Shown here in pieces: positions 154-34,400 of a stretch of 64,000 nt of DNA; position 1 is the first letter of the stretch, and every line of letters starts with the position of its first letter. The notes under the pieces were generated by a model. It was not told the DNA's origin. It saw nothing but the letters and a program-made list of their open reading frames with translations, and searched no databases. The position numbers and the translations under genes are program-made. Origin of the DNA: a virus; IMG/VR virus record IMGVR_UViG_3300034037_000036, positions 1 through 64,000 of that record; one strand, written 5' to 3'.

Positions 154-3100
154 ATGCCAAAAAATATAAATAATATTTCTGAAAGTATTAGGAAATCTCT
201 ATTATCAAAGAATTTAAAATTTAGTAGCGAGGTTAAGGAAAATAATTTAATTAATTTTGTTGGTGATAGAAAATATATACCAAAACTTGCTAATAAAGTA
301 GAATCAACAAATGTGTATTTTTTAAATAGTGATATTTATTTGCATAATAATATATCAAGTAACAAATATATTGGAAGTGAAGAAATAACAATAAATGAAT
401 TAACTGGGAATAAATCAAAATCAAATAACACTTTCATTAAAGTAAAAAAGCAAAGTGATTTAGATTTTTCAGAAGATCCAAATTTACCATTAAATAAATA
501 TGCTAAGATTGCCTCATCCCAATTTTACAAGAATATTTATTTTGATTCTGATGAAAAAAGAAAAATACAATTAAGTGGTGAGTTATTAAATTCAGATAAA
601 AAAGGAGTTTATTCTGTTAAACCACCAAAAGGTACTGAAGAGCTGGTTAAAATATTTAGTGTATTAGGCATTGACAATGTATCACCATTTTTTGGTAATC
701 CATTTTCAACTGGAAGTGAATTAGAAGATGTAAGTAGAAAGGAATTATTAAATCAATTGAAATATACAGTATCCAACAAAGCAGTTAGTGGTGGTGTTGG
801 TGGAATATTAAAAGGAATTAAAAATGCTTTAAAAGAAGGGAGTAGTATTGTTTTTTCTGATTTTAGAATAACAAGACCAAAAGGTAGTGTTGGTAGTGTT
901 ATAGATAAAGTTTCAGTATTTGAATCACCAACATCAATAATTCCTGATAGTGCATTACCGTTATCATCTTTTTCAGATAATGACATTAAGGCAAATAAAG
1001 AGTTATTATTATATACTGGGAAAGGTCAAATTATTGCATTAATAGAAAATTTAAATAATAACAGATTTAAATTAAAATTAGAGGACAATAGAGGGAAAAA
1101 ATTAATTGGCACAATAAATCCAAGAATTTATTATTTGGACAATGGAGATGGTGATATTTTGTTAAAAGGTGGTGAAAAAACTGATTTTGAAAAACGTTTT
1201 GGTTATATCACATCCGAAAACGACTTAAAAGGTTCTTCATTATTAACATTTGATGAAAATTCTGCTGATGAGATTGGTGGGATGGAAATATTCTCTTGGT
1301 CTGATGAGAAATTAAACAAACAATTGTTGGAAAGTTACAGCAATGCAAATGAATTGATGAAAGAAGCAGATTCGTTGCTTTATAAAACCCAACAGTTGTT
1401 TAACACAAATAAAATAAATATGCTGTTGACAGCAAAAGGAAAAATTCATCATAACGATAAAATGATGTCAACAGTAAAATTAAATGGAACAAGATATATT
1501 TCAAAAGGTTCTCAAGTTTTAACAAAATCAGCAATAGATGGGAATGAAACAGATCCCAACAACATATTTTGTAGAGTTTGGAATATAATAGATAGATATG
1601 ATGAGGTTTCAGATTTACAAAAACACAGCGGGTTAAATTATTATTCAGAAGTTGGTGAAAATAATATATCAAAATTATCAGTCCTTGATGATAATGGATT
1701 TGTTAGAATTGCACCAGATTTTGAAAGTAAAGACATAAAAAAGTTTATGTTTTCAATTGAAAATTTAGCATATGATGTTAATATATCAAATTTGTTACCA
1801 GAAGAAATTGGAGATGGTGATCCGATTACTGGGACAAGAGGAAGGATAATGTGGTTTCCACCATATGATTTAACATTTACAGATAATAGTGATGTTAATT
1901 ATGATTCAATAAATTTTATTGGTCGTGGTGAACCAATATATACTTATAACAACACAGAAAGAAGCGGAACATTAAGTTTTAAATTGCTTGTGGATTACCC
2001 CTCATATTTGGAAAATATTAAATCTTTAAGCGGTGAAAAAGAATATTTGAATAATCTTGCACATAGTATGATTGCTGGTTGTGCTGATGTTCAAATGCCA
2101 AATATAAACTTTATGACGCAAAAAGAAAAGGATGAGGTTGAGGCAAAAACCGTTGTTGCAGAAGATGAGGTTATTATTGAAAAAAAGGATGTTCCACCAC
2201 CTGATTTTAAAATATATTTCCCAAATGATTCATATTCATTTTCATTATTGGCTGATTATGAAAACGGAGATGGAGTTGGTCTTGGTGTTACATATTCAGA
2301 TGGTGTGGTTTTTGAAGGTTGTGGTGGCGGTGCTGTAAGGTCAAAATTAGGATGTCCATGCGCACAATCAGATAATACCGATTTTGGCTTAAATGCCCAA
2401 CAAATTACATTACCTGATGGGAATAGTTATAATGGAATTTCTGACCCGTTATTTTTTCCATCTCTTGCTGAATATATTGTAAAAAATTGTAAATCTTGCA
2501 GAATTAAAATATCTGGATTTGCTTCAAATGATGGGGTTTCAAATAAAAATCAGGAATTATCACAAAAAAGAGCGGAAGCAATAAAAGATTTTTTGTTACA
2601 ACAATTACAATTAGCAAATGATCCCATTGGTGAAAAAAGATTTGCTGGTCAACCAAGTGGTGAAGGAGAAATATCATCACAAGGTTGTCCCAAACTATCA
2701 CATGATTGTTCTTCAATAGATGTTATTCCAGATGTGGATAAAGAATGTAAGAAAAAATCTCGTTCTGTATTGGTTAGTTTTGAAATAGATGAGACATTGA
2801 CAGAAGATTTTGAAAAAAGTAAAAAAACACCACAAAATATTGATCCTGAAAAAGAATCAGTTCAATTTACAAATGATGTTAAGAGAAGAGTTTTTAATGA
2901 ATATTTATTTTTTAAAAAACTTGGTGAATTTGACAAGTTTGCTTTGGATAATATTACAGATAAAATAAAATTTTTCCATCCTGCATTTCATTCTATAACA
3001 CCTGAAGGATTTAATGCAAGGTTGAATTTCTTAAAACAATGCACAAGACAAGGACATACTGAAAACAATGGTGATCCTAATAACTTGGCTTTCGGTAAAC

Positions 3101-3867
3101 CCCCTGTATGTATTTTGAGGATTGGTGATTTTTATTATACAAAAATAATTATAACAAATGTTGATTTTGATTTTAGTGAAGGTTTATGGGATTTAAACCC
3201 TGAAGGTATAGGTGTTCAACCTATGATTTGTAATGTATCTATAAACTTTAAATTCATTGGCGGTTCTTCATTAACTGGACCAATTCATAAGTTGCAAAAT
3301 GCAATTACTTCAAACTTTTTTGCAAATACAATGGTTTATGATACCACATCAAATTATAACAAAGATGGCAAAATAGAAGGTGGTCTAAAATTGAAAAAGG
3401 GTAAAGAAGAAGAAAAGAAAGCAGATATTTCAACAGATAATATTACAACCCCAGAAATAAATCAAGAAGAATTTGCATTAAATAATTCGGAAGCAACAAA
3501 TGATGAAGTGTTAAACGAAAATAAAAAATTGTTTAAATTTTTAAGCAAAGAAACAATATTGACATTTATTGATACGGATGGGGATGATTTATTATTAACA
3601 GTAAAATCCAAATTTAAAATTGCAAAAGTTGATAATTTAGTGGATGATGTTTATAGAATTAAGACTTATATTGTGGACAAAGAAACGAACGAAGCGGTAT
3701 CAGGAGAAAAGACAATTTTGTTTAATAAAAATGAAACTGAAAAGGAATATGAAATTGATTGGAATATAAGATTAACAAACAAAATTGATATTAATTTGAA
3801 AATAAATGATAATTTAAACGAAATTTTAGATATTTTTATAAGTGTTAAAGGTGTAAATATTATTTAA
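154..3867 (+). CDS. tail-tube-adaptor/baseplate protein with inserted OmpA-like domain
   Basis: A 1237-aa virion protein. Residues ~560-620 (WFPPYDLTF, then RSGTLSFKLLVDYP) and ~940-1065 (FHPAFHS, CTRQGHT, VCILRIGDFYYTKIIIT, WDLNPEGIGVQP) look like two parts of a tail-tube adaptor or baseplate protein of contractile systems; this rests on remembered family patterns. Between them, residues ~679-885 form an OmpA-C-like domain: a first strand FKIYFPNDSYSFS, then RIKISGFASNDG, NQELSQKRAEAIKDFL and a closing RSVLVSFEI. OmpA-C domains bind peptidoglycan, so the insert may anchor the baseplate to the cell wall. The N-terminal 550 residues are not recognised. The gene starts a run of three baseplate genes; the next ATG follows the stop by one base (TAATATG). 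A candidate promoter lies 58 bases upstream. The OmpA-like call is fairly sure, the adaptor call moderate. Confidence 0.65.
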   Translation: MPKNINNISESIRKSLLSKNLKFSSEVKENNLINFVGDRKYIPKLANKVESTNVYFLNSDIYLHNNISSNKYIGSEEITINELTGNKSKSNNTFIKVKKQSDLDFSEDPNLPLNKYAKIASSQFYKNIYFDSDEKRKIQLSGELLNSDKKGVYSVKPPKGTEELVKIFSVLGIDNVSPFFGNPFSTGSELEDVSRKELLNQLKYTVSNKAVSGGVGGILKGIKNALKEGSSIVFSDFRITRPKGSVGSVIDKVSVFESPTSIIPDSALPLSSFSDNDIKANKELLLYTGKGQIIALIENLNNNRFKLKLEDNRGKKLIGTINPRIYYLDNGDGDILLKGGEKTDFEKRFGYITSENDLKGSSLLTFDENSADEIGGMEIFSWSDEKLNKQLLESYSNANELMKEADSLLYKTQQLFNTNKINMLLTAKGKIHHNDKMMSTVKLNGTRYISKGSQVLTKSAIDGNETDPNNIFCRVWNIIDRYDEVSDLQKHSGLNYYSEVGENNISKLSVLDDNGFVRIAPDFESKDIKKFMFSIENLAYDVNISNLLPEEIGDGDPITGTRGRIMWFPPYDLTFTDNSDVNYDSINFIGRGEPIYTYNNTERSGTLSFKLLVDYPSYLENIKSLSGEKEYLNNLAHSMIAGCADVQMPNINFMTQKEKDEVEAKTVVAEDEVIIEKKDVPPPDFKIYFPNDSYSFSLLADYENGDGVGLGVTYSDGVVFEGCGGGAVRSKLGCPCAQSDNTDFGLNAQQITLPDGNSYNGISDPLFFPSLAEYIVKNCKSCRIKISGFASNDGVSNKNQELSQKRAEAIKDFLLQQLQLANDPIGEKRFAGQPSGEGEISSQGCPKLSHDCSSIDVIPDVDKECKKKSRSVLVSFEIDETLTEDFEKSKKTPQNIDPEKESVQFTNDVKRRVFNEYLFFKKLGEFDKFALDNITDKIKFFHPAFHSITPEGFNARLNFLKQCTRQGHTENNGDPNNLAFGKPPVCILRIGDFYYTKIIITNVDFDFSEGLWDLNPEGIGVQPMICNVSINFKFIGGSSLTGPIHKLQNAITSNFFANTMVYDTTSNYNKDGKIEGGLKLKKGKEEEKKADISTDNITTPEINQEEFALNNSEATNDEVLNENKKLFKFLSKETILTFIDTDGDDLLLTVKSKFKIAKVDNLVDDVYRIKTYIVDKETNEAVSGEKTILFNKNETEKEYEIDWNIRLTNKIDINLKINDNLNEILDIFISVKGVNII

Positions 3868-3868
3868 T

Positions 3869-4192
3869 ATGCCAAGAGAATCATTTGATAGATATAAAAA
3901 GTTTATTAAGGATGGTGAAATAAAACCAATACCTGGAATTAATATACCAAAATCAGATAGTGATAAAAAAATACTTTATAAAGTTGGTGAAACAAGGTTG
4001 GATAAAGTATCTCAAGAATATTATGGTTCGCCTTTATTTGGATGGTTGATTTTATTGGCAAATCAAGAATATGGTGGTATTGAATTTGATATACCTGATA
4101 AAACAGTAATAAGAGTTCCATTCCCTTTAAAGTCAGCAATAGAAAGATACATTACTGAAGTAGAAAAACATATTAGACTTTATGGCGAATAA
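3869..4192 (+). CDS. 53: baseplate wedge protein, gp53-like
   Basis: A 107-aa protein. Residues ~30-95 (KVGETRLDKVSQEYYG, then FGWLILLANQ, then TVIRVPFPL) fit the small LysM-like domain of T4 gp53 baseplate wedge proteins. In that family the GETLDxIA-type stretch begins a LysM fold and the closing hydrophobic strand ends with a proline. The start is fixed by TAATATG coupling to the preceding stop. Its own stop overlaps the start of the giant hub gene by 11 bases, so the three genes are probably translated as a set. Its place between a tail-adaptor-like gene and a hub gene supports a baseplate role. Confidence 0.65.
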   Translation: MPRESFDRYKKFIKDGEIKPIPGINIPKSDSDKKILYKVGETRLDKVSQEYYGSPLFGWLILLANQEYGGIEFDIPDKTVIRVPFPLKSAIERYITEVEKHIRLYGE

Positions 4193-7100
4193 TAGTTTAG
4201 AAAGTGGGAACATTATTTTAATTGACCCCAATAGATTAAATAATGGGGAACATTTGCGTATTGAAGATTTAAATATATATGTATCATTATCAGTTACAAG
4301 AAGAAACAGAATGTATATTGGCAATGATATTGAGGCGGATAAAATTGTTATTGAGGGTAGTTTTGGTGGTAATGAAACAATAAACATATTAAGTTCTTCA
4401 GGGATTGGTATTGACAATTCTTTAACTACAGCATATACAGAATTATCCACAGAATTTGGAAAGGGGAAAAAGAATCTTGAGAGTTTTGGGATGGAAAGAA
4501 TATCAATTGATTTTGATACATCATATACACCAATAGTAACAATTGATTTTGTAGATGTAAGGGGTAAATTATTTGAACAAAATAAAAACTCTTTATATAA
4601 TTTCTTTTTTGATTTACCTTACCCAATGTTTGAATTAACAGTAAAAGGGTTTTTAGGTAAATCAGTTAGTTATTGTTTACATCTTACTAAATTTAGTGCA
4701 AAATTTAATGATAGGACTGGTAATTTTGAATTAACTTGTAATTTTATAGGATATACATATGCTTTTCTTACAGATATTTTGATGGCTTATATTAAAGCAA
4801 TACCTGGAACAAAATGTGGTAGAGAAAAGATATTGGAAAGAAAACGGTTAAGTGAAAGAACAACATCCGCAAAAGGAAGTGTTTTTATGACAATTGGTGA
4901 ACTTGATGAAAAGATACAGAGGTTAGGTGTTGAGGTTGAAAAAATGAAAGAAGATGAAAAAATTAAACAATTATCATTGGCTGAAGAAATTGTGGTGAAA
5001 CTGGATGAATTAAAATCATTAATTGTAGATAAATTAATTTTAATGAATAATGGTCTTGATTTAGCCAGTTATAAAAATGGATATATAAATATAATTAAAA
5101 GTAAACCAGTTTTTGATAGAAAAAGGTTGGATACATACAATGGTATTATAAAAAATCAGGTAGAAAATATAAATAAAAAAATAAATTCAGAAAAATATAA
5201 ATTAAATTATGAAGATTTTATAATAAAATATAAGAAGAATTTTTATAGAGGGTTAAATGTAGAAGATTTTTTTGATATAAATGATGGTGTTTTAGAAGAA
5301 AAAACTACAATTTCTAATGAGTTAAAAAATAAAATATTTAAATTAAGTGATGAATATACTAATATAGATGAAAAAGAAAAATTTTATAATGATTTAAAAT
5401 CAATAATTAACATTACTTATAATGATAAAAAAATAAATGATAAAACAAATTTTGATATAATATATTTGATTGATATTGTAAATAAAATTGATGAAACTAA
5501 AAATAGGATAAGAAATGATGTTAATTTTTTAAGAGAGACAATTTCTAATGATTTTTCTGAAAAACTGGAAAATTTATTAGCAATAAAAGATAAAGATGGT
5601 AATATAATACAACCATTTAAACCAACAATATATAATATTTTCAAGATTTTATGCGACCATGTGGATATATTTATGGAATGCCTTGAAGATATTGGTAATG
5701 ATATATTAAAAAATAAAGAAAAAAGAAAATCTGATTTATCTGAAATAATTGGAAATTTAGACTCTTCTCCAAAGAGTGATGTTAATGTAAGTCCATTTCC
5801 AGAATACAGGGAAAAAGATTTTAATAGTGGTGCATTTGTTGAAAAATGGATTGGTTCAAAAGCTCCGAATTTACCTGAAGTTAAATTTGTTGGTGAGATG
5901 TTGGATTCTATGCTTAAGGTGGCAAGTGAGGATAGGGCAACTTTTTCCACAATAAAATCACAACAAAAACAAGGTTGGTTACCTACAAACCCATTAGATA
6001 CACCATTAATAATAAATAATGACATATATAATATATATGAACTTGTAGATAATGGTAAATGGTTTGATGTTATTAAATTTCTTGGGTTGAGGTTAACTAG
6101 TTTTTTAGGTTTAGCTGCAAGAAAATTAGATGAGGAAGATATAAAAGCATTTGCAAAATCAGAAGTTAGAGCAATATTTAATTCTATAAAAAATGATGAA
6201 GTATTAGATATTATTTTTAGTGGTTTAAATGATGAGGGTAGTGAATATATAAGTGATATTATTTCTTCTATGACAGGAGAAGAAAATATAAAAAATTATA
6301 ATAAGTTTTTAATAGATGGGAAAGAAATATATGTAAATGGACCATCAATAATAGACAAAGTTTTTATACAAGATAGTAGTTTATTTGGGTTATATGAATC
6401 GAAAAAAGAATATTATTCATATAAATATGACTTTTATTTTGAGGGTGTTGAAAACATAACCGATGTTGATAAAACTTTAATTCCAAAATATTCACCCCCA
6501 TTATCGGAAGATAATTTTAGAACTGTATTGCCAATATATATACCAGATTCAAAAAATAACAATAAATTAATTGGTGGCGGATTTTTAACAATTAAAAATT
6601 CTTATGATAAATATTTTAAAAATGATATTGGCGATTTTGTTTCAAATTCTGAAAGAATAAAATTAAGAGATTCTGGTGTTATTTTTATTAGTGATTATAC
6701 GGGATATGGTAATAATAGCGGAGAAAAAGTTGATGATGGGTCAACATTTATAAAAATTATCAATAGAGAGGATTATGATAGATTAAATATAAGTTTAAAT
6801 GATGATATATCTGAAGCAGTTGAAAAAGTAAAAGGTGAAAACATTATAAATTTAGATTCCATAGATAGCATGGTGGATATTGTTGAAGAAAAAAGAATTA
6901 TAGATGGTAGTATTTTTAATGGGAAGTATGGGTTTAGGGAATTTTTTTGGTGTAAAGTTAATGATGAACATTTAAAATTTGGTTCAGGTGATATATTCCC
7001 ACATTATTTATATTTTTATGGGTTTAAGTCCACAACAAACGCTGATTCAGATGATTTTATTAATAGAAAATTATTGTTATCACAAACTGATGAATATGAT

Positions 7101-10004
7101 TTATATTCAATAGATACTTTATCTGGTAAAAAAATAAATTTTAATTTTAATAAAGCAAAACAGGATATATTTAAAAATATTTTTTCAAATGGTAATAAAG
7201 AAATAATTTATGAATATCAAGATGTTTTATATGAAACAATAGATGGGGTTGGTGATAATAATATAGTATTATCATTATCTTTTAAAACATTTGATAGTGC
7301 AGTATTAAATAAGGAATATTTTGTTTTTGGTAGTAAGTTTTATTATTATCAGGATAATGAATATGCAAGAGCCTATATATTTTTAAGTTCTATATTTGAA
7401 TATTTTAATAAACTAATGTTGGATTTTTCATTTTCTGTTTCAAATGGATTTATTGAAGTACCATATTCATTTATTTTATATATTGGTTCAATACTTAAAA
7501 GATTGGATAATGATTATATTAAACATTATGATTTATTAGATTGGGCTGATATAGAATTACCATCAGGTGATAAGTTTACTGATACATATAAAATGAATTT
7601 TGAAATATTGTTAAAAGATTTAAAATATTTACCTGAAAGTGTAAAAAATGAATTTATAAAAGAATTTGAAAATTGGGTTAATTCAGAAAACGGGTGGAAA
7701 GATATATATAGTAAACTTGAAATATTTAATAGGGATTCTAATGGAAATTTTGATACAAGTATAATTGATGATTATTATACAAATTTTAAAGATGATATAA
7801 ATAGGTATTCTAATAATATATTAAGTGAAAATATAAATGATTATAATATATTTTTAAATGATAGTAGTGAAAATGATAATTTTTTCTTATTAACTAAATC
7901 AAATGGTGTAGGAGTAGAAACAGTTATAAACTTTCTACATAAAACAAAAATAATAGCAAATGGTTCTTGGAGAATATGGGTTGATTTAAGTGATATAGAT
8001 TTTGATAAGAAATCACAACCATTTTTTATATCAGATGATGATTTTAATATTTATAAACTTTCATTTAAAAATGAATTTATAAAACAGTATAATTTAAAAA
8101 TTGAAGGAAAGAAAACCGATTTTGAAAAGGAAAAAGAAACTATATTTGGAACATTAAATAATGAAGATATATTGTTGAGGATTTATAAAAATTTTAAATC
8201 AATTTACGATAAGTGGATTTCTGGTGGTAGAGGAAATTGTGCAGTTAGAACATTAATTGATAGATTTAAATTTATTGATAGAGCTTATAATGATATATCT
8301 GATGATTTTTTGATAAATCCTGTAAATTTAATTGAATATATATCAAAAAACCCAAATACTAATTTATATTCGATTATTGAGAAGATTCTTACAGATAATA
8401 AAATGTTATTCATACCATTACCAAATTATATAAATTATAATGATAAAAATGAAATTGAAGATGTATTTAAACCTTTTAAATTTAATGAATCAGCCAACAC
8501 AACTGGACCACAATTTGTTTGTGTATATGTAGGAGAGTTGTCAAATTCATTAGATTTATCTGATGGTAATTTTGAAAATGATGGTATGGATATTAAAATT
8601 GAAAATGGTGCTTTAAATTTGGATAATATTGGGGATGATTTCAAAAAAAATAATACTGAAAAAATACCTTTTTTTGTTGTTAGATATGCTGATGAAAATC
8701 AAAGCATATTTAGTAATATTAAATTAGACCAAAGCGAATTTACAGAAACAAATGAAACACTTTATATTATTGATGAAATATCAAAACGTGGTTCATTTAA
8801 TGAAGTAACATCTATTGGACAAAATTTGTATGACATATATAAAAATCGTTCTTATAGTATAGAAGTTGAAATGTTGGGTAATGTGCAAATACAACCATTT
8901 ATGTATTTTCAAGTTGAAAAAATTCCAATGTTTCATGGTGTTTATATGATTATTAAAGTGTCTCATACAATAAAAGCAAATTCTGTAATAACAAAATTTA
9001 AAGGTATTAGGGTAAGGAAATATAGGACAAAATATATTGATAAGTCAACATTATTTATGAATTTGATTGGTAATTTAAGTAACACTAACTTTGAAGATGT
9101 AAAATTAACAAACTTAAATAAACTTGAAGAAGGGAATATTAGCATTGATTCAGGTAGAAGTGTTGAAGAACCAAATATTGTATTTAATGATTTATTTATG
9201 AATCCAACAGATAATAATGGAAATAAATTAATAGTACCAATAATTATATCTAATATTGGATATAGAAATCTTAATGGGAATTTTAGGATTCATGAAGGAA
9301 TTGATATAGCATTTAGATATAAAAATAAAAATGGTCTTAAAATTATTAATAATGAAAATTTAAATGAAATTTTTAAAGATGATAATGTTTTATCTGAAAA
9401 TGGTGTAATAAGAAAAAATATTGAATTAAAAGCTCCATATGATTCAGTTATTTATGGTGTAAAATTATCTAAATCAGTAGGACTAATTTTGGATACATAT
9501 GTTAAATTTAATGATAGGAAAGATGGGTATATATTAAGATATTTACATCTTATTGATATAGATAAAAAAATAATTGAAAGAGCATTAGTATTATATAACA
9601 AACAGAATGGAACTAATATAACATATGATGATTGGTTAAATAATAGTTTTAATACTAATGGAAAAGATTTTGTGGTGTCAAATTTTAATTATAAAGTAAA
9701 AAAAGGAGAAACATTAGGATTAGTAGGTGGATTGAAAAACACAAGAATAATAAATGGAATAGACACAGCTGGAAAATCAACAGGGACTCATCTACATTTA
9801 GAGTTGTTGTATTTGGATGAAAATAATTTTAAAGTAGAAGAAATATCTAAATGTGTTTCTTGTTCAAGAAAATCATTAAAGAAAATTAAGGGTATTGATG
9901 CTCAATTGAAAAACTTTGTTGACTATTGTGAAGATTGTATATCCTATTGGTCAATAGGAAATGATAGTAATAGATATGATTCTGACAATACATCATCAAC
10001 ATAA
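4182..10004 (+). CDS. giant baseplate hub protein with C-terminal M23 metallopeptidase
   Basis: A 1940-aa protein, the largest in the window. The N-terminal ~210 residues (YPMFELTVKGFLGK, LHLTKFSAKFNDRTGNFEL, FIGYTYAFL) and the segment around residues 1560-1620 (GNVQIQPFMYFQVEKIPMFH, then IIKVSHTIK) resemble hub proteins of the gp27 kind. A charged coiled-coil-like stretch covers ~235-450. Residues ~1690-1890 are an M23 (LytM-type) peptidase with complete metal ligands: H1704 and D1708 in HEGID, and H1870 and H1872 in THLHLEL. M23 enzymes cut peptidoglycan cross-bridges, so this is probably the tail-tip enzyme used at DNA entry. T4 instead carries a lysozyme domain on gp5. The C-terminus has CVSC and CEDC pairs that could bind a metal. 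The middle ~1100 residues are not recognised. Confidence 0.7.
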   Translation: MANNSLESGNIILIDPNRLNNGEHLRIEDLNIYVSLSVTRRNRMYIGNDIEADKIVIEGSFGGNETINILSSSGIGIDNSLTTAYTELSTEFGKGKKNLESFGMERISIDFDTSYTPIVTIDFVDVRGKLFEQNKNSLYNFFFDLPYPMFELTVKGFLGKSVSYCLHLTKFSAKFNDRTGNFELTCNFIGYTYAFLTDILMAYIKAIPGTKCGREKILERKRLSERTTSAKGSVFMTIGELDEKIQRLGVEVEKMKEDEKIKQLSLAEEIVVKLDELKSLIVDKLILMNNGLDLASYKNGYINIIKSKPVFDRKRLDTYNGIIKNQVENINKKINSEKYKLNYEDFIIKYKKNFYRGLNVEDFFDINDGVLEEKTTISNELKNKIFKLSDEYTNIDEKEKFYNDLKSIINITYNDKKINDKTNFDIIYLIDIVNKIDETKNRIRNDVNFLRETISNDFSEKLENLLAIKDKDGNIIQPFKPTIYNIFKILCDHVDIFMECLEDIGNDILKNKEKRKSDLSEIIGNLDSSPKSDVNVSPFPEYREKDFNSGAFVEKWIGSKAPNLPEVKFVGEMLDSMLKVASEDRATFSTIKSQQKQGWLPTNPLDTPLIINNDIYNIYELVDNGKWFDVIKFLGLRLTSFLGLAARKLDEEDIKAFAKSEVRAIFNSIKNDEVLDIIFSGLNDEGSEYISDIISSMTGEENIKNYNKFLIDGKEIYVNGPSIIDKVFIQDSSLFGLYESKKEYYSYKYDFYFEGVENITDVDKTLIPKYSPPLSEDNFRTVLPIYIPDSKNNNKLIGGGFLTIKNSYDKYFKNDIGDFVSNSERIKLRDSGVIFISDYTGYGNNSGEKVDDGSTFIKIINREDYDRLNISLNDDISEAVEKVKGENIINLDSIDSMVDIVEEKRIIDGSIFNGKYGFREFFWCKVNDEHLKFGSGDIFPHYLYFYGFKSTTNADSDDFINRKLLLSQTDEYDLYSIDTLSGKKINFNFNKAKQDIFKNIFSNGNKEIIYEYQDVLYETIDGVGDNNIVLSLSFKTFDSAVLNKEYFVFGSKFYYYQDNEYARAYIFLSSIFEYFNKLMLDFSFSVSNGFIEVPYSFILYIGSILKRLDNDYIKHYDLLDWADIELPSGDKFTDTYKMNFEILLKDLKYLPESVKNEFIKEFENWVNSENGWKDIYSKLEIFNRDSNGNFDTSIIDDYYTNFKDDINRYSNNILSENINDYNIFLNDSSENDNFFLLTKSNGVGVETVINFLHKTKIIANGSWRIWVDLSDIDFDKKSQPFFISDDDFNIYKLSFKNEFIKQYNLKIEGKKTDFEKEKETIFGTLNNEDILLRIYKNFKSIYDKWISGGRGNCAVRTLIDRFKFIDRAYNDISDDFLINPVNLIEYISKNPNTNLYSIIEKILTDNKMLFIPLPNYINYNDKNEIEDVFKPFKFNESANTTGPQFVCVYVGELSNSLDLSDGNFENDGMDIKIENGALNLDNIGDDFKKNNTEKIPFFVVRYADENQSIFSNIKLDQSEFTETNETLYIIDEISKRGSFNEVTSIGQNLYDIYKNRSYSIEVEMLGNVQIQPFMYFQVEKIPMFHGVYMIIKVSHTIKANSVITKFKGIRVRKYRTKYIDKSTLFMNLIGNLSNTNFEDVKLTNLNKLEEGNISIDSGRSVEEPNIVFNDLFMNPTDNNGNKLIVPIIISNIGYRNLNGNFRIHEGIDIAFRYKNKNGLKIINNENLNEIFKDDNVLSENGVIRKNIELKAPYDSVIYGVKLSKSVGLILDTYVKFNDRKDGYILRYLHLIDIDKKIIERALVLYNKQNGTNITYDDWLNNSFNTNGKDFVVSNFNYKVKKGETLGLVGGLKNTRIINGIDTAGKSTGTHLHLELLYLDENNFKVEEISKCVSCSRKSLKKIKGIDAQLKNFVDYCEDCISYWSIGNDSNRYDSDNTSST

Positions 10005-12525: not shown

Positions 12526-13635
12526 ATGGCAAGATTAAAAAAGAAAAGCAGCAATAGTAGTGGAGAAAAAAATAAATCTTTTGATTTGGATTCATTTTTA
12601 GAAAAGGAATCATTAAACACAACAAATCAAGAGAAAGAAAAAAGCTGGATACCAATGCCAAAAGCATGGCATGATGCTTTAAAAATACCTGGATTTCCAA
12701 GAGGATATGTGAGTTTAATTAGAGGTTATTCAAATACAGGGAAATCTACAGCGTTTTATGAGGCGATTGCTGGCGCACAAAAAATTGGTGATTTACCCGT
12801 GGTTATCGAAACAGAGGGCAATTGGAATGATGAACACGCAAGACAGGTTGGTGTTAAATATAAGGAGATTGTTAATCCTGAAACAGGAGAGGTGGTGTAT
12901 AAACCAGATAATTTTATAATTATAAAAAATAAAGATTTATATGAGCGATATAAAAACTATTGCCATAAAGATAATAAATATAAATCTAAATCAACTAGAA
13001 ACCAACCTGTAATTGAAGATGTTGCTCTTTTTATAAATGAAATGTTAAACAAACAAGCCAATGGTGAATTACCAATGAATTTATGTTTTTTATGGGATTC
13101 AATTGGAACTTTAAATTCATATCGTTCTGCAACATCTAATACACAGAACAATCAATGGAATGCAGGTGCTATGAATTGTTTTGGCTCTATCGTAAATTAT
13201 TTAATTCCTTCATCAAGAGATATTGATAGCAAATATACAAATACTCTTATATGTGTTCAAAAAATTTGGCTTGATAATGAAAATAAAGTCATTAAACATA
13301 AAGGAGGCGAATTTATGTTTTATAATTCAAGATTAATTGTTCACTTAGGAGGAGTATTATCACATGGAACTAAAAAATTAAAAGCAATTTCTTTAGGTCA
13401 GGAATTTCAATATGGAATTGAAACACAAATAAAATGTGAGAAGAATCAAGTTACTGATGTTGTTAAAGACGGAAGAATTGCATCAACTATTTTTGGATTT
13501 GTATCACCTGATGAATTGGATAAGTGGAAAAAAGAAAATGCAGATTTCATTAGACAAAAATTAAAAATGTCTTATGATGATGAAATATCATTTGTAGAAG
13601 AAGAAGGTGTATTTGAAAGTGAAGATATTGGATAA
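12526..13635 (+). CDS. uvsX: UvsX-like recombinase
   Basis: A 369-aa RecA-fold strand-exchange protein. The P-loop GYSNTGKST is at residues 67-75, followed by the glutamate strand PVVIETEGNW. A Walker B-like strand LCFLWDSIGTL precedes a QNNQWNAGAMN segment corresponding to RecA loop regions. TNTLICVQKIW and GGEFMFYNSRLIVHLGG complete the core. Its length is near T4 UvsX (391 aa). It follows gp32 by 18 bases and precedes the 5' exonuclease, so it is likely co-transcribed with them. Confidence 0.9.
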   Translation: MARLKKKSSNSSGEKNKSFDLDSFLEKESLNTTNQEKEKSWIPMPKAWHDALKIPGFPRGYVSLIRGYSNTGKSTAFYEAIAGAQKIGDLPVVIETEGNWNDEHARQVGVKYKEIVNPETGEVVYKPDNFIIIKNKDLYERYKNYCHKDNKYKSKSTRNQPVIEDVALFINEMLNKQANGELPMNLCFLWDSIGTLNSYRSATSNTQNNQWNAGAMNCFGSIVNYLIPSSRDIDSKYTNTLICVQKIWLDNENKVIKHKGGEFMFYNSRLIVHLGGVLSHGTKKLKAISLGQEFQYGIETQIKCEKNQVTDVVKDGRIASTIFGFVSPDELDKWKKENADFIRQKLKMSYDDEISFVEEEGVFESEDIG

Positions 13636-17157: not shown

Positions 17158-18084
17158 ATGTCTAATAAATTAAAAGAAATTTCTGAAGAAATCCGCAATA
17201 TTATTATTGAGGAACAAAAAAATCGTGGGTTAAAATTTATTGAAGAATCTCACAAATATTTTATAAAAAATAAAGATGGTGAATTGGTTTCTGATTTACC
17301 ATCAGTTTCAAAAGTTATTAAACAGTTTTATGAACCATTTGATACAGTTGGAATATCTGAAAGGATTTCAGGTGGTGATATTGAATTACAATATCAAAAA
17401 ATTATGGAATGGCGTAATGCGGGTAAAGACGGCATGAATATCGGCTCAATAGTACATTATTTTTTAGAAAAAGACATAACACGTATATTTGACATAAATA
17501 AAGATGTTAGGAAGCCAATATTTGAAATTAAACCTGAAATAAAAAGTGTTGTTAACAATATGGTAAAAGCTGGGAATAGTTTTATAAATACAATGATTAG
17601 GAGAGGGTGTTATTTAATAGATACAGAAATTGTATTAGGTTCTTATGAATTGGGTTATGTTGGTCAACCAGATAAGATTTGGATTATTGAACATAATGGA
17701 AAAATTGGATTTATTGTTACAGATTGGAAAACAAATAAAGAAAAGGCATTTAAACCAAATGCATATACAAAAAAAATGTTTCCTCCATTTGATTTTCTTG
17801 ATGATACTTCTTTATCCAAATATAAATTGCAATTATCGTTTTATGGGAGATTATTTATAGACATGCTTAAAAACAGCAAATATAAAAACCTTCCGTTCTT
17901 GGGTGGTATCATTGTTAATTTAAAACGAAATGGTGATTTTAATGAATACATGATAGAGAAAAAAATAATAAAAAAGGTTATGAAGATTGACCCATTGGAA
18001 AATATTAATATGGTTTATGAACAAGAAAGAAATGAAAAAAGAATAATAAAAGAAATTGAAAATAAATTAAATGGAAAAAATTAA
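17158..18084 (+). CDS. PD-(D/E)XK nuclease (RecB/Cas4-type exonuclease)
   Basis: A 308-aa predicted nuclease. The order of motifs is IGSIVHYFLE (motif with the metal-binding His), YVGQPDKIWII with D172, and FIVTDWKTNKE with D189 and K191, the canonical D...D-x-K signature of the PD-(D/E)XK superfamily, then LSFYGRLF (QxxxY-like helix). RecB-like phage exonucleases process DNA ends for recombination or degrade host DNA. The gene overlaps gp47 by 14 bases and is the first gene of the nuclease-gp47-gp46 set, so a role in end resection is likely. Confidence 0.8.
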   Translation: MSNKLKEISEEIRNIIIEEQKNRGLKFIEESHKYFIKNKDGELVSDLPSVSKVIKQFYEPFDTVGISERISGGDIELQYQKIMEWRNAGKDGMNIGSIVHYFLEKDITRIFDINKDVRKPIFEIKPEIKSVVNNMVKAGNSFINTMIRRGCYLIDTEIVLGSYELGYVGQPDKIWIIEHNGKIGFIVTDWKTNKEKAFKPNAYTKKMFPPFDFLDDTSLSKYKLQLSFYGRLFIDMLKNSKYKNLPFLGGIIVNLKRNGDFNEYMIEKKIIKKVMKIDPLENINMVYEQERNEKRIIKEIENKLNGKN

Positions 18085-18898
18085 ATATATAGCACATATT
18101 GGAGATATACACATAAGAAAATATAAAAGACATGATGAATATGAGAAAGTGTTCAATAAATTATATAAAAAATTATATGATTTATTTAATGGTGTTGAAT
18201 ATGATTTTAGGAGGATTGTGATTGCTGGTGATTTATTTCATGATAAGGTTAATGTTACTAATGAATTATATATGTTTACATATAATTTTATTAAAAATTT
18301 ATCAGAGATTAGTCCTTTAATAATAATTCCAGGAAATCATGATTTATTAGAAAATAATGTTGATAGAATTGATACAATAACGCCAATAGTTTCAGCATTA
18401 AAAGAGAATGGTAAGACTATTGGTTACTTAAAAGAAAGTAAATGTTTTGTTGATAAAAATATAGTATGGTGCCATTATTCTATTTTTGATGGATATAAAA
18501 AACCAAATATTGAAAAATATAAAAGAAAATATGGTGATAATAAAGTTTTTATTGGTTTATATCATGGTCCATTAAGTGGTGCAATAACAGATACTGGATA
18601 TGTATTTGATGATACAAATATTTCAATGGATATATTTGATGGGTTAGATATTGTTATGATGGGGGATATACATAAGAGAAGTTTCTTTAAATATAAAGAA
18701 ACCATATTAGCATATCCTGGAAGTTTGATACAACAAAATTTTGGTGAGAGTGTAAGTAAACATGGGTTTTTATTTTGGGATATAGAAAACAAGAAATATG
18801 AAGAGGTTAATATTTACAATGAACATTCATTTTATTCATTTAAAATATCGGATATTACAGATTTTGATAACATAAATTTTAATTGGTTAAATAAGTGA
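18071..18898 (+). CDS. 47: recombination endonuclease subunit gp47 (Mre11/SbcD-like)
   Basis: A 275-aa calcineurin-like phosphoesterase, the nuclease half of the gp46/gp47 complex that resects DNA ends. Metal-binding motifs appear in order: HIGDIHIRK (D12, H14), IAGDLFHD, IIPGNHDLL, VWCHYS, LYHGPLSG and MMGDIHKR. It is shorter than T4 gp47 (339 aa); the C-terminal capping domain looks reduced. The start lies inside the end of the preceding nuclease gene and the stop overlaps the next start (GTGA). Confidence 0.9.
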   Translation: MEKIKYIAHIGDIHIRKYKRHDEYEKVFNKLYKKLYDLFNGVEYDFRRIVIAGDLFHDKVNVTNELYMFTYNFIKNLSEISPLIIIPGNHDLLENNVDRIDTITPIVSALKENGKTIGYLKESKCFVDKNIVWCHYSIFDGYKKPNIEKYKRKYGDNKVFIGLYHGPLSGAITDTGYVFDDTNISMDIFDGLDIVMMGDIHKRSFFKYKETILAYPGSLIQQNFGESVSKHGFLFWDIENKKYEEVNIYNEHSFYSFKISDITDFDNINFNWLNK

Positions 18899-19266
18899 TA
18901 AAAGAGAGTTTATATAATGAAATATTGGAATATTGTAAATTAAACAATATTGAAGATGTGGAAGGTTTAATAAATAAAATGCTTGAAAGAGGGTTTCAAA
19001 TTGAAAAATATGGTGAAACACCAATTAAAATAAATAATGAAATTGTTAAAGAAAAAATAGTATATTTGAACAATGATGAAGAGGTATTAAAAATGAATGA
19101 TATTATAAAGGATAAGGATAATGAGATAGAGAAATATAAAGTGATGGTTGAGGAATTAAAGGAAGAATTAAATAAAATTAAGAATGGTGATGATGATATA
19201 TATAACGAAGAAAAAAAAGGTATCTTTGGGTCTAATATAATGGATTTATGGAAAAAGAAAAAATAA
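18895..19266 (+). CDS. small coiled-coil protein between gp47 and gp46
   Basis: A 123-aa protein starting with GTG that overlaps the gp47 TGA. The N-terminal third has NNIEDVEGLINKMLERGFQI followed by EKYGETP, a helical pair I have seen next to gp46/gp47 in other large phages (memory only). Residues ~65-100 form a coiled coil (EIEKYKVMVEELKEEL). The C-terminus ends in a lysine cluster and overlaps the start of gp46 by 19 bases. Strict embedding between the two subunits suggests it works with the complex. Confidence 0.65.
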   Translation: MIKESLYNEILEYCKLNNIEDVEGLINKMLERGFQIEKYGETPIKINNEIVKEKIVYLNNDEEVLKMNDIIKDKDNEIEKYKVMVEELKEELNKIKNGDDDIYNEEKKGIFGSNIMDLWKKKK

Positions 19267-21608
19267 AAATATCTGAAAATTCTAGGATTCGCATATATTG
19301 GGAGGACGATCCGTTCAAATATACTAAAGATAATAAGAATATTATTAAAGAAAGATTTTCAGAAAGGTATGGTATAAATAAAAAAAACATTGAAGTAGTA
19401 TTTCACCCCAAATTAAAAAACGTTAATGAAAAATCAAATAATTTATTAGATATTGGTAATACATTTTTTAAAAACACAAGAGATTTAAAATATCATCACG
19501 AACTTTTTAAGGAGTGTATAGAAAGAAATGTATTAGATGTTAATTTTGATGAAATTAAAAAAATAGATGAGAAGGTAAACTCATTATTAGATATTGATTT
19601 AGCAGAATCAAACATTTATAAGATAAATTGGATAGAGTTAAATGGGTTTTTATCATATGGTTATGATAATTTTTTAAACTTTAAAGATTTAAATGGTTTA
19701 ATTATAGTAAATTCAATACCTTCAAATCAAGGTGGTAAAACAACATTATGTATAGAATCTTTAAAATTTTTATTTTTTGGTAAAACTAATAAGGCTAATA
19801 ATACAACCCAAATATTTAATAAATTTATAAATGGTGAGGTGGCTTCAGTAAAGGGTTCATTTAATATAAATGGTGAAGAATATATTATTGAGAGATCATT
19901 AACAAGAACTAAAAATAAATCTGGTAGATTTAATAAAACAATAAAGAGTAAGGTTAATTTTTATAAAAAGGTTGGGGATGAGATTATAAATATGAATGAT
20001 GAAGATTCAATATCAACTAGTAATAAAATTAAGAATATAATTGGTAATGAAAATGATTTTGAATTTAGCATATTAACAACTTTAAGAAACATTGATGATT
20101 TTATTTCATTAGGTCCAACAGAGCTTACCAGAATAATAAATAAATATATTGGTCTTGATATAATTGAGAAGAAAGAACAAATTGCAAAAGATTTATTTAA
20201 TAAATTTAGTAAAAAATTAAATAAAAATTTATATTCAATAGATGATTTGAAAAAAGATATTGAAAATTTAAATAAAGATAAAACATCATTGGAAGATAAA
20301 AATAAAGAATTAAATGTTTTATTAGAAAAGAAAAGGTCGGAGTTAAAAGAATTGGAAAAGGAGAAAGAAGATTTAATATATAGCAAGAAACCAATTGATG
20401 ATGAAATAAAGGGATTAAATTTGGAAAATTTAAATAATGAATTAAAAACAATAATAAAAGAAGGAAAATCAGTTTCCTCAAAGATTAATAAATTAAAAGA
20501 AGAAATTGATACATTATCTGATATAGAATATGATGATAAAAAATATATAGAAACAGTAAATAATTTAATATCAATAAATGATGAAATCAGCACAATAAAC
20601 AACCTTATTTCATTAAAGAAATCAGATATAAAAACTTATTTGGAAGAACAAATATGTCCAAAATGTAAAAGACCATTAGATGGTATTGATAATACGGAAA
20701 AAATAAATAAATTAAATAATGAAATTGAAGATTTGAATAATAAATTATTGACATTAAATAATAAGAAAAAAGAAATTGAAAAAGAAAAAGATGAGCTTGA
20801 GGAATTAAAGAAAGAACATGATTATAAATCATCACTTGAAATTAAGTTGGATAAATATATTGTTGAAAAAGAGGGGTTGGAATTGAAATATAAGACAGTA
20901 AAAAATAAAATAAATAAGATAAAAGATTATAATAAAGTAATAGAACATAACATATCTATAGATTGTAAAATAGAATATGTTAAATCCCAAATACAAATAA
21001 AAAACAATGAGATTGAAAAACTTATAGGTGAAATTGAAGGAAACAAAGGTAAAATAGATAATATAAATGATAAAATAATTGACAATGAAGAATTAATTAA
21101 GATAATAAATAAAGAAATTGAGGATGAAAAAAATTTTAAGGATTATTTATTATTAGTGGGGAAAGGCGGTATTAAAAATTTGATATTAAAATCAATATTA
21201 CCAATTTTAAATTCTGAAATAAAAAGATTGTTAGATGATATTGTTGATTTTGATGTTGAATTGGTATTAAATAACAACAATTTAATTGATTTTATTTTAG
21301 TAAAAGGCGATAAAGAAATGCCTTTAAAATCTGGAAGTGGATTAGAATTATCTGTAAGTTCTGTAGCAATAAGGTCATTACTTGGAAGGATGTCATCATT
21401 ACCAAGACCAAATTTTATTGTATTTGATGAGGTATTTGGGTCAATTTCTGATGAAAATATTGAAAAAATAAGACCTTTATTTTATAAGATAAAAGACATG
21501 TATGAAAAAGTTTTTATAATAACCATGAGGGAAGAGGTTAAAAATTGGGCAGATACCACAATAACAGTAGTAAAAGAAAATAATATATCTAAATTAAAAA
21601 TAAAGTAA
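19248..21608 (+). CDS. 46: recombination ATPase subunit gp46 (Rad50/SbcC-like)
   Basis: A 786-aa SMC-type ATPase, longer than T4 gp46 (560 aa). The Walker A is SNQGGKTT around G162-K164-T165. The residue at the usual first glycine is a proline (P-S-N-Q-G-G-K-T), a departure from GxxxxGK. Two long coiled-coil arms (~320-465 and ~485-640) flank the zinc hook CPKC at C470 and C473. The signature-like LKSGSGLELSVSSVAIRSLL precedes Walker B NFIVFDEVFGS with D727-E728. An N-terminal ~130-residue extension precedes the ATPase fold. It pairs with gp47 just upstream. Confidence 0.9.
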   Translation: MEKEKIKISENSRIRIYWEDDPFKYTKDNKNIIKERFSERYGINKKNIEVVFHPKLKNVNEKSNNLLDIGNTFFKNTRDLKYHHELFKECIERNVLDVNFDEIKKIDEKVNSLLDIDLAESNIYKINWIELNGFLSYGYDNFLNFKDLNGLIIVNSIPSNQGGKTTLCIESLKFLFFGKTNKANNTTQIFNKFINGEVASVKGSFNINGEEYIIERSLTRTKNKSGRFNKTIKSKVNFYKKVGDEIINMNDEDSISTSNKIKNIIGNENDFEFSILTTLRNIDDFISLGPTELTRIINKYIGLDIIEKKEQIAKDLFNKFSKKLNKNLYSIDDLKKDIENLNKDKTSLEDKNKELNVLLEKKRSELKELEKEKEDLIYSKKPIDDEIKGLNLENLNNELKTIIKEGKSVSSKINKLKEEIDTLSDIEYDDKKYIETVNNLISINDEISTINNLISLKKSDIKTYLEEQICPKCKRPLDGIDNTEKINKLNNEIEDLNNKLLTLNNKKKEIEKEKDELEELKKEHDYKSSLEIKLDKYIVEKEGLELKYKTVKNKINKIKDYNKVIEHNISIDCKIEYVKSQIQIKNNEIEKLIGEIEGNKGKIDNINDKIIDNEELIKIINKEIEDEKNFKDYLLLVGKGGIKNLILKSILPILNSEIKRLLDDIVDFDVELVLNNNNLIDFILVKGDKEMPLKSGSGLELSVSSVAIRSLLGRMSSLPRPNFIVFDEVFGSISDENIEKIRPLFYKIKDMYEKVFIITMREEVKNWADTTITVVKENNISKLKIK

Positions 21609-22176: not shown

Positions 22177-22905
22177 ATGGGTAATCAATGGAACAATGAA
22201 TTTTCAGAAGAGAATGTTTTGAGATATTTTAAAGATGTTAAAGAAAGCGAAACAGATTATAATGAAGAAATTGAACTTTTTAAGAAAATAAAAAAAGGTG
22301 ATAAGAAATCACGTGATTTAGTATTAAAGAAACATTTAAGATTTGTAATAAAAGTAGCTAAAACATATAAAGGTTGTGGTTTACCAATTCAGGATATTAT
22401 TGGATTTGGGAATTTAGGTTTAGTTAAAGCCATAGATACTTTTGATATAAATAAAAATTGTAGCTTTTTAAGACATGCTTATTTTAGCATAAAAGGTGAA
22501 ATATTGAATAATTTAAGACAACATTCAAATATAATCAGAATACCAACATCTACAATGAGGAAAAATAAAGATAATAAAAAAATATATTCATATGAATATG
22601 ATTTAGTAAAATTATATAATGTTTTGTATAGTGATTCTGATGGTAATTATAAATCAGCAGATTATGATATATTATTATATGAAAAAGACTTTTTTTATAA
22701 TAAATTAATTGAAAAAATTGAATTATTATCAGATGAAGAAAAAGATATAATAAAGAAAAGTTATGGTATTAAATGTAAAAAAGTTGGATTAAACGATTTA
22801 TGTAAAGAATATGGGACACATAGACCAAAAATTGTTGAAATAAGAAAAAATGGTCTTAGAAAATTAAGGTATTTTCTTGCAGATGATATTAAAGAATATA
22901 TTTAA
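22177..22905 (+). CDS. sigma-70 family factor, first copy
   Basis: A 242-aa sigma-70 type protein. Region 2 is clear: VLKKHLRFVIKVAKTYKG, then LPIQDIIGFGNLGLVKAIDT and FLRHAYFSIKGEILNNLRQ, the -10 recognition and melting helices. A region 4-like helix-turn-helix is at the C-terminus (VGLNDLCKEYGTHRPKIVEI, then RKNGLRKLRYFL). Region 1.1 is absent and region 3 is short. It would direct host RNA polymerase to phage promoters. The ATG lies inside TTATTTAAATGGGTAATC, which resembles the candidate phage promoter motif. The stop codon lies inside another copy that serves the next gene. Confidence 0.85.
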   Translation: MGNQWNNEFSEENVLRYFKDVKESETDYNEEIELFKKIKKGDKKSRDLVLKKHLRFVIKVAKTYKGCGLPIQDIIGFGNLGLVKAIDTFDINKNCSFLRHAYFSIKGEILNNLRQHSNIIRIPTSTMRKNKDNKKIYSYEYDLVKLYNVLYSDSDGNYKSADYDILLYEKDFFYNKLIEKIELLSDEEKDIIKKSYGIKCKKVGLNDLCKEYGTHRPKIVEIRKNGLRKLRYFLADDIKEYI

Positions 22906-31075: not shown

Positions 31076-31408
31076 ATGGGAATGATTAAATTTGAAATTA
31101 AAGATATTCATTTATCTTTATTCAAATACATTGATTTAAAAAATTATTATAAGTTTATTTTAAAGTTTGATGATGAAATAATTTTTGATAATGATGATAA
31201 GGATTTAGTGGAATTGATAAATGAGTTTGGTTTGGTAATTTATGGGAAAGAAGGTGGGTTTATGAATTATAATGAAGAGCAAATTGAGAATATAAAAGAA
31301 CATATAAAAGATTTTGAAAAAGTAATACAAATATTTCAATGTAATTCCAATATTGAGACAGGAAATTATGTTACAAGAACTTTTAACATTGATTGGATAA
31401 AAAAATAA
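31076..31408 (+). CDS. unknown small protein
   Basis: A 110-aa protein from ATG 31076 (MGMIKFEIKDIHLSLF); an in-frame TTG two codons earlier is less likely. It is an acidic alpha/beta protein with a run of negative charge (FDDEIIFDNDDKDLVELIN). No family is recognised. It lies between a promoter-proximal gene and the large phosphoesterase gene and is probably co-transcribed with both. Confidence 0.55.
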   Translation: MGMIKFEIKDIHLSLFKYIDLKNYYKFILKFDDEIIFDNDDKDLVELINEFGLVIYGKEGGFMNYNEEQIENIKEHIKDFEKVIQIFQCNSNIETGNYVTRTFNIDWIKK

Positions 31409-31413
31409 TCACT

Positions 31414-34400
31414 ATGGACAGTAAAATACTAACTAATTTATTAAATGTTAATAAATCATGTGATTTAACTTCAAAAGAATGGGATAGTGAATATGTTGAA
31501 TATGTTGAAAATTATGGTCCCGCATTAACTTCAAAAGGGATTAAATATTGTGCTGAATTATATTTAAATGACAACTTATCAATAGATGATAAAATAACTA
31601 AAATAGTAAAAGAATTTAATGTTCCACCAAGTATAGCCATTTATCTATATCCGATAAATGTTAATGTGAATGGATATAAAGACAATGTTTATTTTAATAA
31701 AATAAAGAAGTTATACGGAATTTCAGATAAAGATATATATAAAATTTATGAAATTTTTAAAAAAGAAAAAAGTATTGTTGAAATTGTAAGAAAAGTTTTG
31801 AATTTCACTGATTTAAGTGAAATAGAAATAATATCAATATATAATTTTTATAAATATAAATTATCTGATGATGGTAAAAGATATTATTTATCTACACGGT
31901 ATCATTTTATAAAATTATCAAACTTATTTTTAAATTTTAGTGGTAGAAGTAATATATATAGGAAATTCTTTTTATCAAGTGATTATTATAATTTTTATTA
32001 TAAAAAATTTTTAGATTTATATTTGTCTGATTATGATTTTATTAAACATTTATATAGTAATTTAAAGAGTGGTAATTTATTTTATAATTCAGAAAAATAT
32101 AAAGTTAATTATGATGGTGCTAAAGTTTTATTGAATATATACAGAAGTAAATTAGAGAAAAAAGAAAAAATAAATTTAATTAAAGAAATATTTGATGTGA
32201 ATAGTAAGATTGGGAATGATTTAATTCCCAATTTTATTATTAATAATAAAGTTTATATAACATTATATTCAGGTATAAAAAATTATTTGGGATTATCTGA
32301 AACAGATTTTAATAGGGTGTTGGATATATTAAATGGGGAATATTCTTTTGATGATAAAATCAATAAAATATCAAAAATAGTAAATCTTGATTATGATATT
32401 ATCTTTAATTGGTGTTTGGCTAAAAATGAAATGTTATTTGTAAATAATATTATTTTAAAAGAATTAAATAAAATAAAATATGAAAATTTAAGAAAATTAA
32501 AATTTTGTTTTATAGACATTAAAAAAGAAATTACTTTAAATGAAAATATAAGTGATATTGAAAGTGAAATAAAAAAATTAAAAAAGGTAAAATATATAGG
32601 TTATGATAGTTTGGGTATATATGAGTATAAAAAGTTATTTGATTTTAAGATAAAAGAAAAGTATTCACATAACATTATATATTTAATATCCAAATTTTTT
32701 AATATAGATGAAAATGAAAGTAAAAAGTTAGAACCTGTTTATGTTTTTAACATTAAAAATGATAATTTATCAGAAAAAATATCTAAATTATATAAAATAG
32801 ATGAATCTATTTCTAATAAAATAATCAGAATAATTGGTAATAAAAAATATGGTTTAGATAATAAGATAAACTCTATAATAAAATTAACTAAAGTAAATTA
32901 TTTTACAGTTAAGTTTTGGTGTCTTAGATATTATAAATGTTTTTTATTAACAAATTATGATATTGAAAATATAATAAAAACCATAAAAGAAAATGAGTTA
33001 AATTATAAAACAGCTATAAAATATGTGATGTTGTATTATATGGTATCTTATAACTTTGTGAAGAAAAATTTAAAAGATACGATATTAGAACATTCTAAAG
33101 GTGAAGGGGGTGTTGATTATAAAAAATTAAATAAATTGATTTATGTGGGTTTTGATGATATAAAAAGAACAGATAATGAAAACAATTTAGATGAAAAAAA
33201 TGATGATAATAATAAATATGAAACTGGTAGAAATAGTTTATTTAGTTTTTTGGGTGATAAATTAAATGGATTTTTTAATATATTTGCAAAAAAGAATAAA
33301 AAAAGTAATATGGGAAAAAATAAAATTAAAGAAACTAACGACATAAATAGTGATGAAAAATTAAATAAAGAAAAAGATAAGGAAAATGAAGTAAATGAAT
33401 ATGAAATTGCAAAGGAGAGAGAATTTGATAAGAATAAAAAATATTTTTTAATAACATGGGCGCAGAATAATACAAAAGTTCATAGACAGTTTTTCTATAA
33501 TTTGAAAAAATATGCCGAATATCTGAATGCAGATATACATGTTATTGCTGGAAGATATAAAAATCCAAATTCATTATCCGCATATAAAAAAATAGATGAA
33601 AAATGGTCAAAAATTGTTAGTCCATACTTGGATGCCAATAGACATAAATTACATAAAAACATATGGATTATGTCCGATATAAAGATACAACCAACCGCAA
33701 TAAACCCAATGAGCGGTATGGAAGCATTGTCTAGAAATAATTCTTGTATATTTGGGCATCCAAAAGTACATTTTCAAGTTATCCCAACAATAAATTCTGA
33801 AAATCCAAAAGTTATATTAACTACTGGTGCTTGCACTATTAAAAATTATACGGATTCAAAAGCGGGTAAAAAGGGTGAATTTAATCATCAACTTGGATTT
33901 TGTATTTTGGAAATACATGATGAAGAAACTTTTTATGTTAGACAAGTTACTGCTGATGAGAATGGTGATTTTATTGATTTAAATAAAAAAGTATATTTTA
34001 AAGGAAATATTATAAAGAAGAAAGTTAATGATGAATCATATTATGAGAGTTTTTTTGAGGATGATGATTATGAGTTTAACGGAGAATTTGTTGTAGAAAC
34101 TATTAAGGAGGTTGAATGTTGTGTCATGGGAGATATTCATTGTGGGAAAGAAGATAAGAAGGTTGTCAATGAAACTTTTAATATGTTTAAAAAATTAAAG
34201 CCAAATACAGTTGTTTTACACGATATATTTGATGGATATTCAATATCTCATCATGACGCAAAAGATCCGTTTATTCAATATTCAAATGAATTTCATAATA
34301 AAAATTCTTTGAAAGATGAATTGGATTATATGTTAAAATTTTTAGATAAATTTAAAAAAATAAAAAATGTGGTTATTGTTAGAAGTAATCATGATGATTT

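Follow-up and report, generated by a model that had tools for sequence, protein, structure and literature searches.

The window covers the initial 64 kb of a virus record that is 86.6 kb long. A 1237-amino-acid protein encoded at its start carries a genuine domain of the OmpA/Pal/MotB type. This protein (154..3867, + strand) was taken from the list of open reading frames and belongs to a family of more than 120 viral loci. In relatives, its gene is seated between those for a tape-measure-like protein and a gp53-like protein plus hub, and the gene product resembles a tail-tube cap or initiator. The OmpA-like domain is inserted into this protein throughout the lineage, judging from the sequences collected here, and not just in the window. 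The contractile-tailed phages that bear an OmpA-like domain in such a tube-cap-like tail protein make up a large lineage, most of it uncultivated. The literature searched contains no account of a phage baseplate that carries a domain of the OmpA type.

Identification of the OmpA-like domain

An initial sequence-only reading of this DNA had placed an OmpA-C-like domain at aa ~679-885 (positions 2190-2810). This assignment is borne out, with limits now drawn at aa ~684-880 (2203..2793, + strand). Pfam reports PF00691 (OmpA) at aa 771-821 with an E value of 2.4e-7 and a score of 31.5 bits, above the gathering cut-off of 27.2, and this is the single family matched, with no second one elsewhere in the 1237-aa protein. 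NCBIfam models of the OmpA type and PDB chains of the OmpA kind also give weak matches.

The same reading had asked for structure prediction, and models of two segments both contain an OmpA fold. An AlphaFold model of aa 676-900, made with an alignment of 32 relatives, has a pTM of 0.82 and a mean pLDDT of 84.5. When this model is compared with the PDB by using Foldseek, 68 matches are obtained at E<=1e-3, and among the 50 of these that were listed nearly all are OmpA-C, TagL, Pal, MotB, YfiB or similar proteins. The model displays the beta-alpha-beta-alpha-beta fold characteristic of OmpA, Pal and MotB, with target-normalised TM values of up to 0.68 (to 3td5). A larger AlphaFold model spanning aa 482-1074 yields the same OmpA-type matches with Foldseek.

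The inserted region (window 2200-2800) is rich in cysteine, as seen in the stretches GCPC, NCKSC and GCPKLSHDC. A cysteine occurs at aa 779 in 17 of 57 relatives, and at aa 782 likewise in 17, and the two possibly constitute a disulfide or metal pair.

A family-wide insertion into a conserved core

Relatives were located by using a degenerate DNA pattern for PEGFNxRLxFLxQCxRQG, a core motif that lies outside the OmpA-like domain, such that the sample consists solely of members with this exact motif. The pattern matches more than 120 viral contigs and three contigs from bacterial bins. Among 82 long relatives, the flanks of the OmpA-like domain form one conserved core whose best blocks are 73-89% conserved. 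The first half of the core (aa ~525-640; 1726..2073, + strand) includes a beta-hairpin with GRIMWFPPYDL and FIGRGEP..YTYNNTER, and was recognized by its conservation, by strands in the model and by its detection in an insert-less protein described below. The second half (aa ~905-1060; 2866..3333, + strand) has invariant columns in PAFHSITPEGFNxRLxFLxQCTRQG, GxPPVCxLRIGDFY and WDLNPEGxGVQPM, and is the source of the DNA search pattern. Thus, the proposal that the domain sits between two tail-adaptor-like pieces holds, with the pieces being a single core that is split by the insert.

Every one of the 82 long relatives has an insert between the core halves. In all 57 non-redundant relatives the insert occupies the same point, and it is recognisable as OmpA in most of them. 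Pfam calls OmpA at E<=0.01 in 32 of the 57, and most of the remaining 25 keep a GxAS...N..L...R motif. It is exceedingly improbable that the match in the window is a chance motif match in a low-complexity, AT-rich protein. The Pfam match does span merely ~50 residues, but its recurrence across relatives, together with the predicted structure and the Foldseek matches, leads us to reject this explanation.

Isolated phages were searched with the core alone after joining its halves. This query finds Flavobacterium phage immuto with an E value of 4e-4 (188 query residues on 170 target residues); no match among isolated phages was obtained in protein searches with the full 1237-aa protein or the hub. 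The immuto cassette comprises a tape measure, a small gene, a 716-aa adaptor, a 101-aa protein and a 938-aa hub that ends in a VanY carboxypeptidase. No Pfam domain is found in the immuto adaptor. There, the two halves of the core are no more than ~30 residues apart, and the second gives a weak match when taken by itself. Because these halves adjoin without an insert, the core is able to work by itself and the OmpA-like domain is an addition to it. The domain-bearing family and this domain-less isolate form a pair that makes the question of wall holding testable.

Gene context and probable assignment as a tail-tube cap

Upstream genes are seen in relatives alone, as the upstream side of the window ends at the contig end. 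Where the upstream DNA of a relative is long enough, the gene order is sheath, tube, a ~400-aa gene, a ~860-aa tape-measure-like protein and the OmpA adaptor. The sheath matches phrog_23 (E 1e-44, in relative L087), and the tail tube matches phrog_4542 (E 2e-18). Downstream, relatives encode a ~105-aa gp53-like protein and then a hub of 1500-2200 aa, and their loci hold 103 homologues of the gp53-like protein and 95 of the hub N-terminal part. The window has a gp53-like baseplate wedge protein of 107 aa (3869..4192, + strand), which matches the baseplate wedge subunit phrog_7145 (E 1.7e-6) and Pfam gp53 below cut-off (E 0.028), and whose homologues adjoin the adaptor in relatives. It also has a giant hub-like protein of 1940 aa (4182..10004, + strand), whose homologues in relatives follow immediately after the gp53-like gene.

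A tail-tube initiator gene is expected between the tape measure and the hub of a contractile tail module, and this is the place of the adaptor gene in relatives and likewise in immuto. When the aa 482-1074 model is compared with a viral library by using Foldseek, it matches CIS tube N-terminal proteins (prob 0.99, E 5e-3 to 2e-2) and the Synechococcus phage S-CAM9 tube cap (prob 0.57). PHROGs provides no tail annotation for the core. Because of the gene order and the fold matches to contractile-injection tube and tube-cap proteins, the 1237-aa protein is most likely a tail-tube cap or initiator. We infer its copy number and exact seat.

Host and other genes of the window

The three bacterial-bin contigs with a family member are L124, L126 and L125, the last of which is titled Mycoplasmatota. 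L124, L126 and the immuto relative suggest, but do not establish, a Bacteroidota host. A search of 395 Bacteroidia genomes gave a match in the source genome alone, which fits unintegrated phages. Mycoplasmatota have no cell wall, and the presence of OmpA-type genes in the L125 bin suggests that it is mis-binned.

Elsewhere in the window, a 1165-aa protein (31393-34890) matches the PHROG 'DNA transfer protein' phrog_1745 over its C-terminal half (E 3e-155), also matches a metallo-phosphoesterase family, and has ~600 extra N-terminal residues. Two separate phage sigma-factor genes at 22177-22905 and 35315-36223 match phrog_351 (E 3e-33 and 7e-39, respectively). A T4-like recombination and repair set at 17158-21608 and 12526-13635 includes a UvsX-like recombinase, an exonuclease and SbcD- and SbcC-like subunits.

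Conservation of the putative peptidoglycan-binding pocket

TagL requires N494, L497, S498, R501 and A502 to bind the cell wall, and its D486 is a further contact to diaminopimelate (DAP) (PMC8253398). Similarly, PorE holds the DAP residue by three side chains, those of D576, N584 and R591 (PMC7192894). An Asp that hydrogen-bonds DAP is common to OmpA, Pal, PorE and TagL. These TagL and PorE pocket positions map without gaps to S791, N799, L802, S803, R806 and A807 of the phage protein. Ser791 (2524..2526, + strand) is the equivalent of the DAP-contacting Asp, whereas Asn799, Leu802, Ser803 and Arg806 (2548..2571, + strand) and Ala807 directly after Arg806 (2572-2574, + strand) preserve the spacing of the five TagL residues and of PorE N584 and R591. 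Thus, the Asn and Arg that mark a DAP binder in PorE are present in the window as N799 and R806, but the Asp is not. On these residues, the OmpA-like domain is not classed as a canonical DAP binder.

Across the 57 relatives, N799 is conserved in 44, L802 and R806 in 49 each, and R870 in 46, while at the Asp-equivalent position 46 have Ser and none has Asp. All five TagL wall-binding residues, with A/S and A/G exchanges allowed, are found in 28 relatives, and at least four of the five in 43. The six pocket positions have a mean conservation rank of 19 of 200 in the domain, which is equalled by only 2 of 100000 random sets. Arg806 was lost a single time on the core tree, in one clade of eight of the 57 relatives (L010, L016, L025, L033, L047, L055, L091 and L114; support 99), where Arg870 is also gone and the insert is retained. 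In 32 pocket-intact relatives, a set picked for its intact motif, N691, Y702, N747, S791, R806 and R870 are invariant. Strong conservation extends to family-specific residues outside the canonical pocket, namely Y702, E703, D740 and N747.

From this pattern, the pocket looks as if it has been retained under selection with one fixed change, unlike simple decay. Given that the Asp-equivalent residue is mostly Ser and never Asp, peptidoglycan binding, if any, would be altered or weak. The grip on peptidoglycan that was originally envisaged for this domain is therefore upheld only in part: most pocket residues are kept over deep divergence, but the Asp that contacts DAP is missing throughout and one clade is also without the Arg.

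Among Bacteroidia cellular OmpA-type proteins near the phage domain, 23 of 25 carry TD. The best cellular match, Bacteroidota OmpA L147, carries AS as in the phage domain and reaches only E 4e-8. On this match, a recent transfer from host OmpA is not upheld, and an origin of the domain in Bacteroidia is possible, but unproven.

Wall-cutting enzymes of the hub

The M23-like peptidase region of the hub (9285..9803, + strand) was read directly from the motifs RIHEGID (9285-9305) and GTHLHLE (9783-9803). Both metal motifs are present (HxxxD as HEGID, and HxH in THLHLE), and the Pfam M23 match is below cut-off (E 0.025). An M23 enzyme on the hub is not a family-wide feature, as the motif pairs are rare and relatives have other enzymes. 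The hub tails of 29 relatives include tail lysozyme (5), M15 types, M23 (3), M74, transglycosylase, CHAP, amidase and NlpC/P60, although some signatures are weak. Thus, the OmpA-like domain is a constant of the family, whereas one hub enzyme is exchanged for another.

These results alter the earlier picture of a fused grip-and-cut device with an M23 hub immediately next door. The 107-aa gp53-like gene stands between the two genes, the grip candidate and the cutter are separate proteins, and M23 is one of several hub cutters. Because the cutter is exchanged and resides on a separate protein, the arrangement is better described as a neighbouring grip candidate and cutter. Hub tails of the pocket-lost type (L016, L030 and L047, where L030 is absent from the tree and resembles the clade without Arg806) have no Pfam match, which hinted at a tie between loss of the pocket and loss of the cutter. 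This idea was dropped, since four pocket-intact hub tails likewise have no Pfam match.

Possible functions of the OmpA-like domain

The leading explanation, to which we assign an even chance, is that a tube-cap ring with OmpA-type domains holds the tip at the peptidoglycan while the hub enzyme opens the wall. In a contractile-tailed phage, the protein would sit as a ring directly over the hub and cap or initiate the tube. Insertion of the domain into a loop of the ring protein would place several copies round the tube tip. Upon sheath contraction, the tip would enter the periplasm, where the domains could contact peptidoglycan stem peptides through Arg806 to the DAP carboxylate and Asn799 to the amine, with Ser791 replacing the usual Asp. 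The many kinds of wall-cutting enzymes at the hub tips of relatives also place the module at the peptidoglycan step.

A substantial, though lesser, possibility is that the domain has lost peptidoglycan binding and been converted to a structural element of the baseplate. It would then occupy the space that hub, tube cap and wedge leave between them, a place taken by LysM in phage Mu gp43 and comparable initiators. The absence of the Asp from all relatives and the retention of the insert in the clade without Arg806 and Arg870, where the pocket is wholly gone, favor this role and count against a grip. The same is true of the precedent in other myophages, whose tube initiators contain LysM modules described as structural (PMC11915804). 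Moreover, the conserved positions are part of the general OmpA motif as well, such that folding could account for their retention, and the family-specific ones outside the canonical pocket could be protein contacts. Nonetheless, keeping the pocket Arg and Asn over deep divergence, with a single Arg loss, is more than would be expected of a mere spacer. The immuto protein weighs on both sides, as this phage manages without a wall-holding domain but equally has the same cassette with no filler in it.

It is also conceivable, but unlikely, that the domain recognizes a different ligand. This could be a stem peptide in modified form (e.g. with amidated DAP or a different diamino acid), some other component of the envelope or an envelope protein of the host, and Ser791 and added loop residues would set the new specificity. 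Invariance of Ser791 in the pocket-intact relatives suggests fixed new chemistry rather than decay. Also, the conserved Y702, E703, D740 and N747 fall between strand 1 and helix 1, and the corresponding loop in TagL borders the DAP groove (PMC8253398). However, nothing points to any particular ligand, and ordinary peptidoglycan may still be the ligand of the cellular OmpA L147, which shares the AS change.

If wall holding is the correct explanation, a broader proposal can be made, which we offer tentatively and at short of even chance. The tube tip in this large contractile-phage lineage would be ringed by wall-gripping domains of the OmpA type, whose Ser-for-Asp pocket would be specific to the lineage and tuned to host peptidoglycan, and a constant grip would be combined with exchangeable hub cutters. 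How contractile tubes pass through peptidoglycan is understood in part, and wall binding at the tube tip would contribute a further step, that of anchoring. With its Ser-for-Asp pocket, the domain would represent a new subtype of OmpA.

Comparison with known systems

The T4 baseplate, with its gp48/gp54 tube cap, gp53 and gp27-gp5 hub, likely has parts with the same roles, including a gp53-like neighbour and an enzyme on the hub. The enzyme on T4 gp5 is a lysozyme, in contrast to the M23-like peptidase in the hub of the window. T4 is not known to have an OmpA-like domain. Flavobacterium phage immuto (gp035-gp033) has the same order of tape measure, core adaptor, small ~101-aa protein and hub with VanY, but unlike in the window its 716-aa adaptor is without the OmpA insert. 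The tube initiators of phage Mu (gp43) and Milano (gp25) carry a module of a peptidoglycan-binding type between tube and hub, as here, although that module is LysM and not OmpA, and is considered structural (PMC11915804). TagL, an accessory protein of the EAEC type VI secretion system, has the same fold and identically spaced N, L, S, R and A wall-binding residues, differing by D486 where the phage domain has Ser. Like the phage domain, TagL belongs to a contractile injection machine. However, TagL anchors its machine in the firing cell's own envelope, whereas the phage domain, being in the tail of the particle, would meet the wall of the target.
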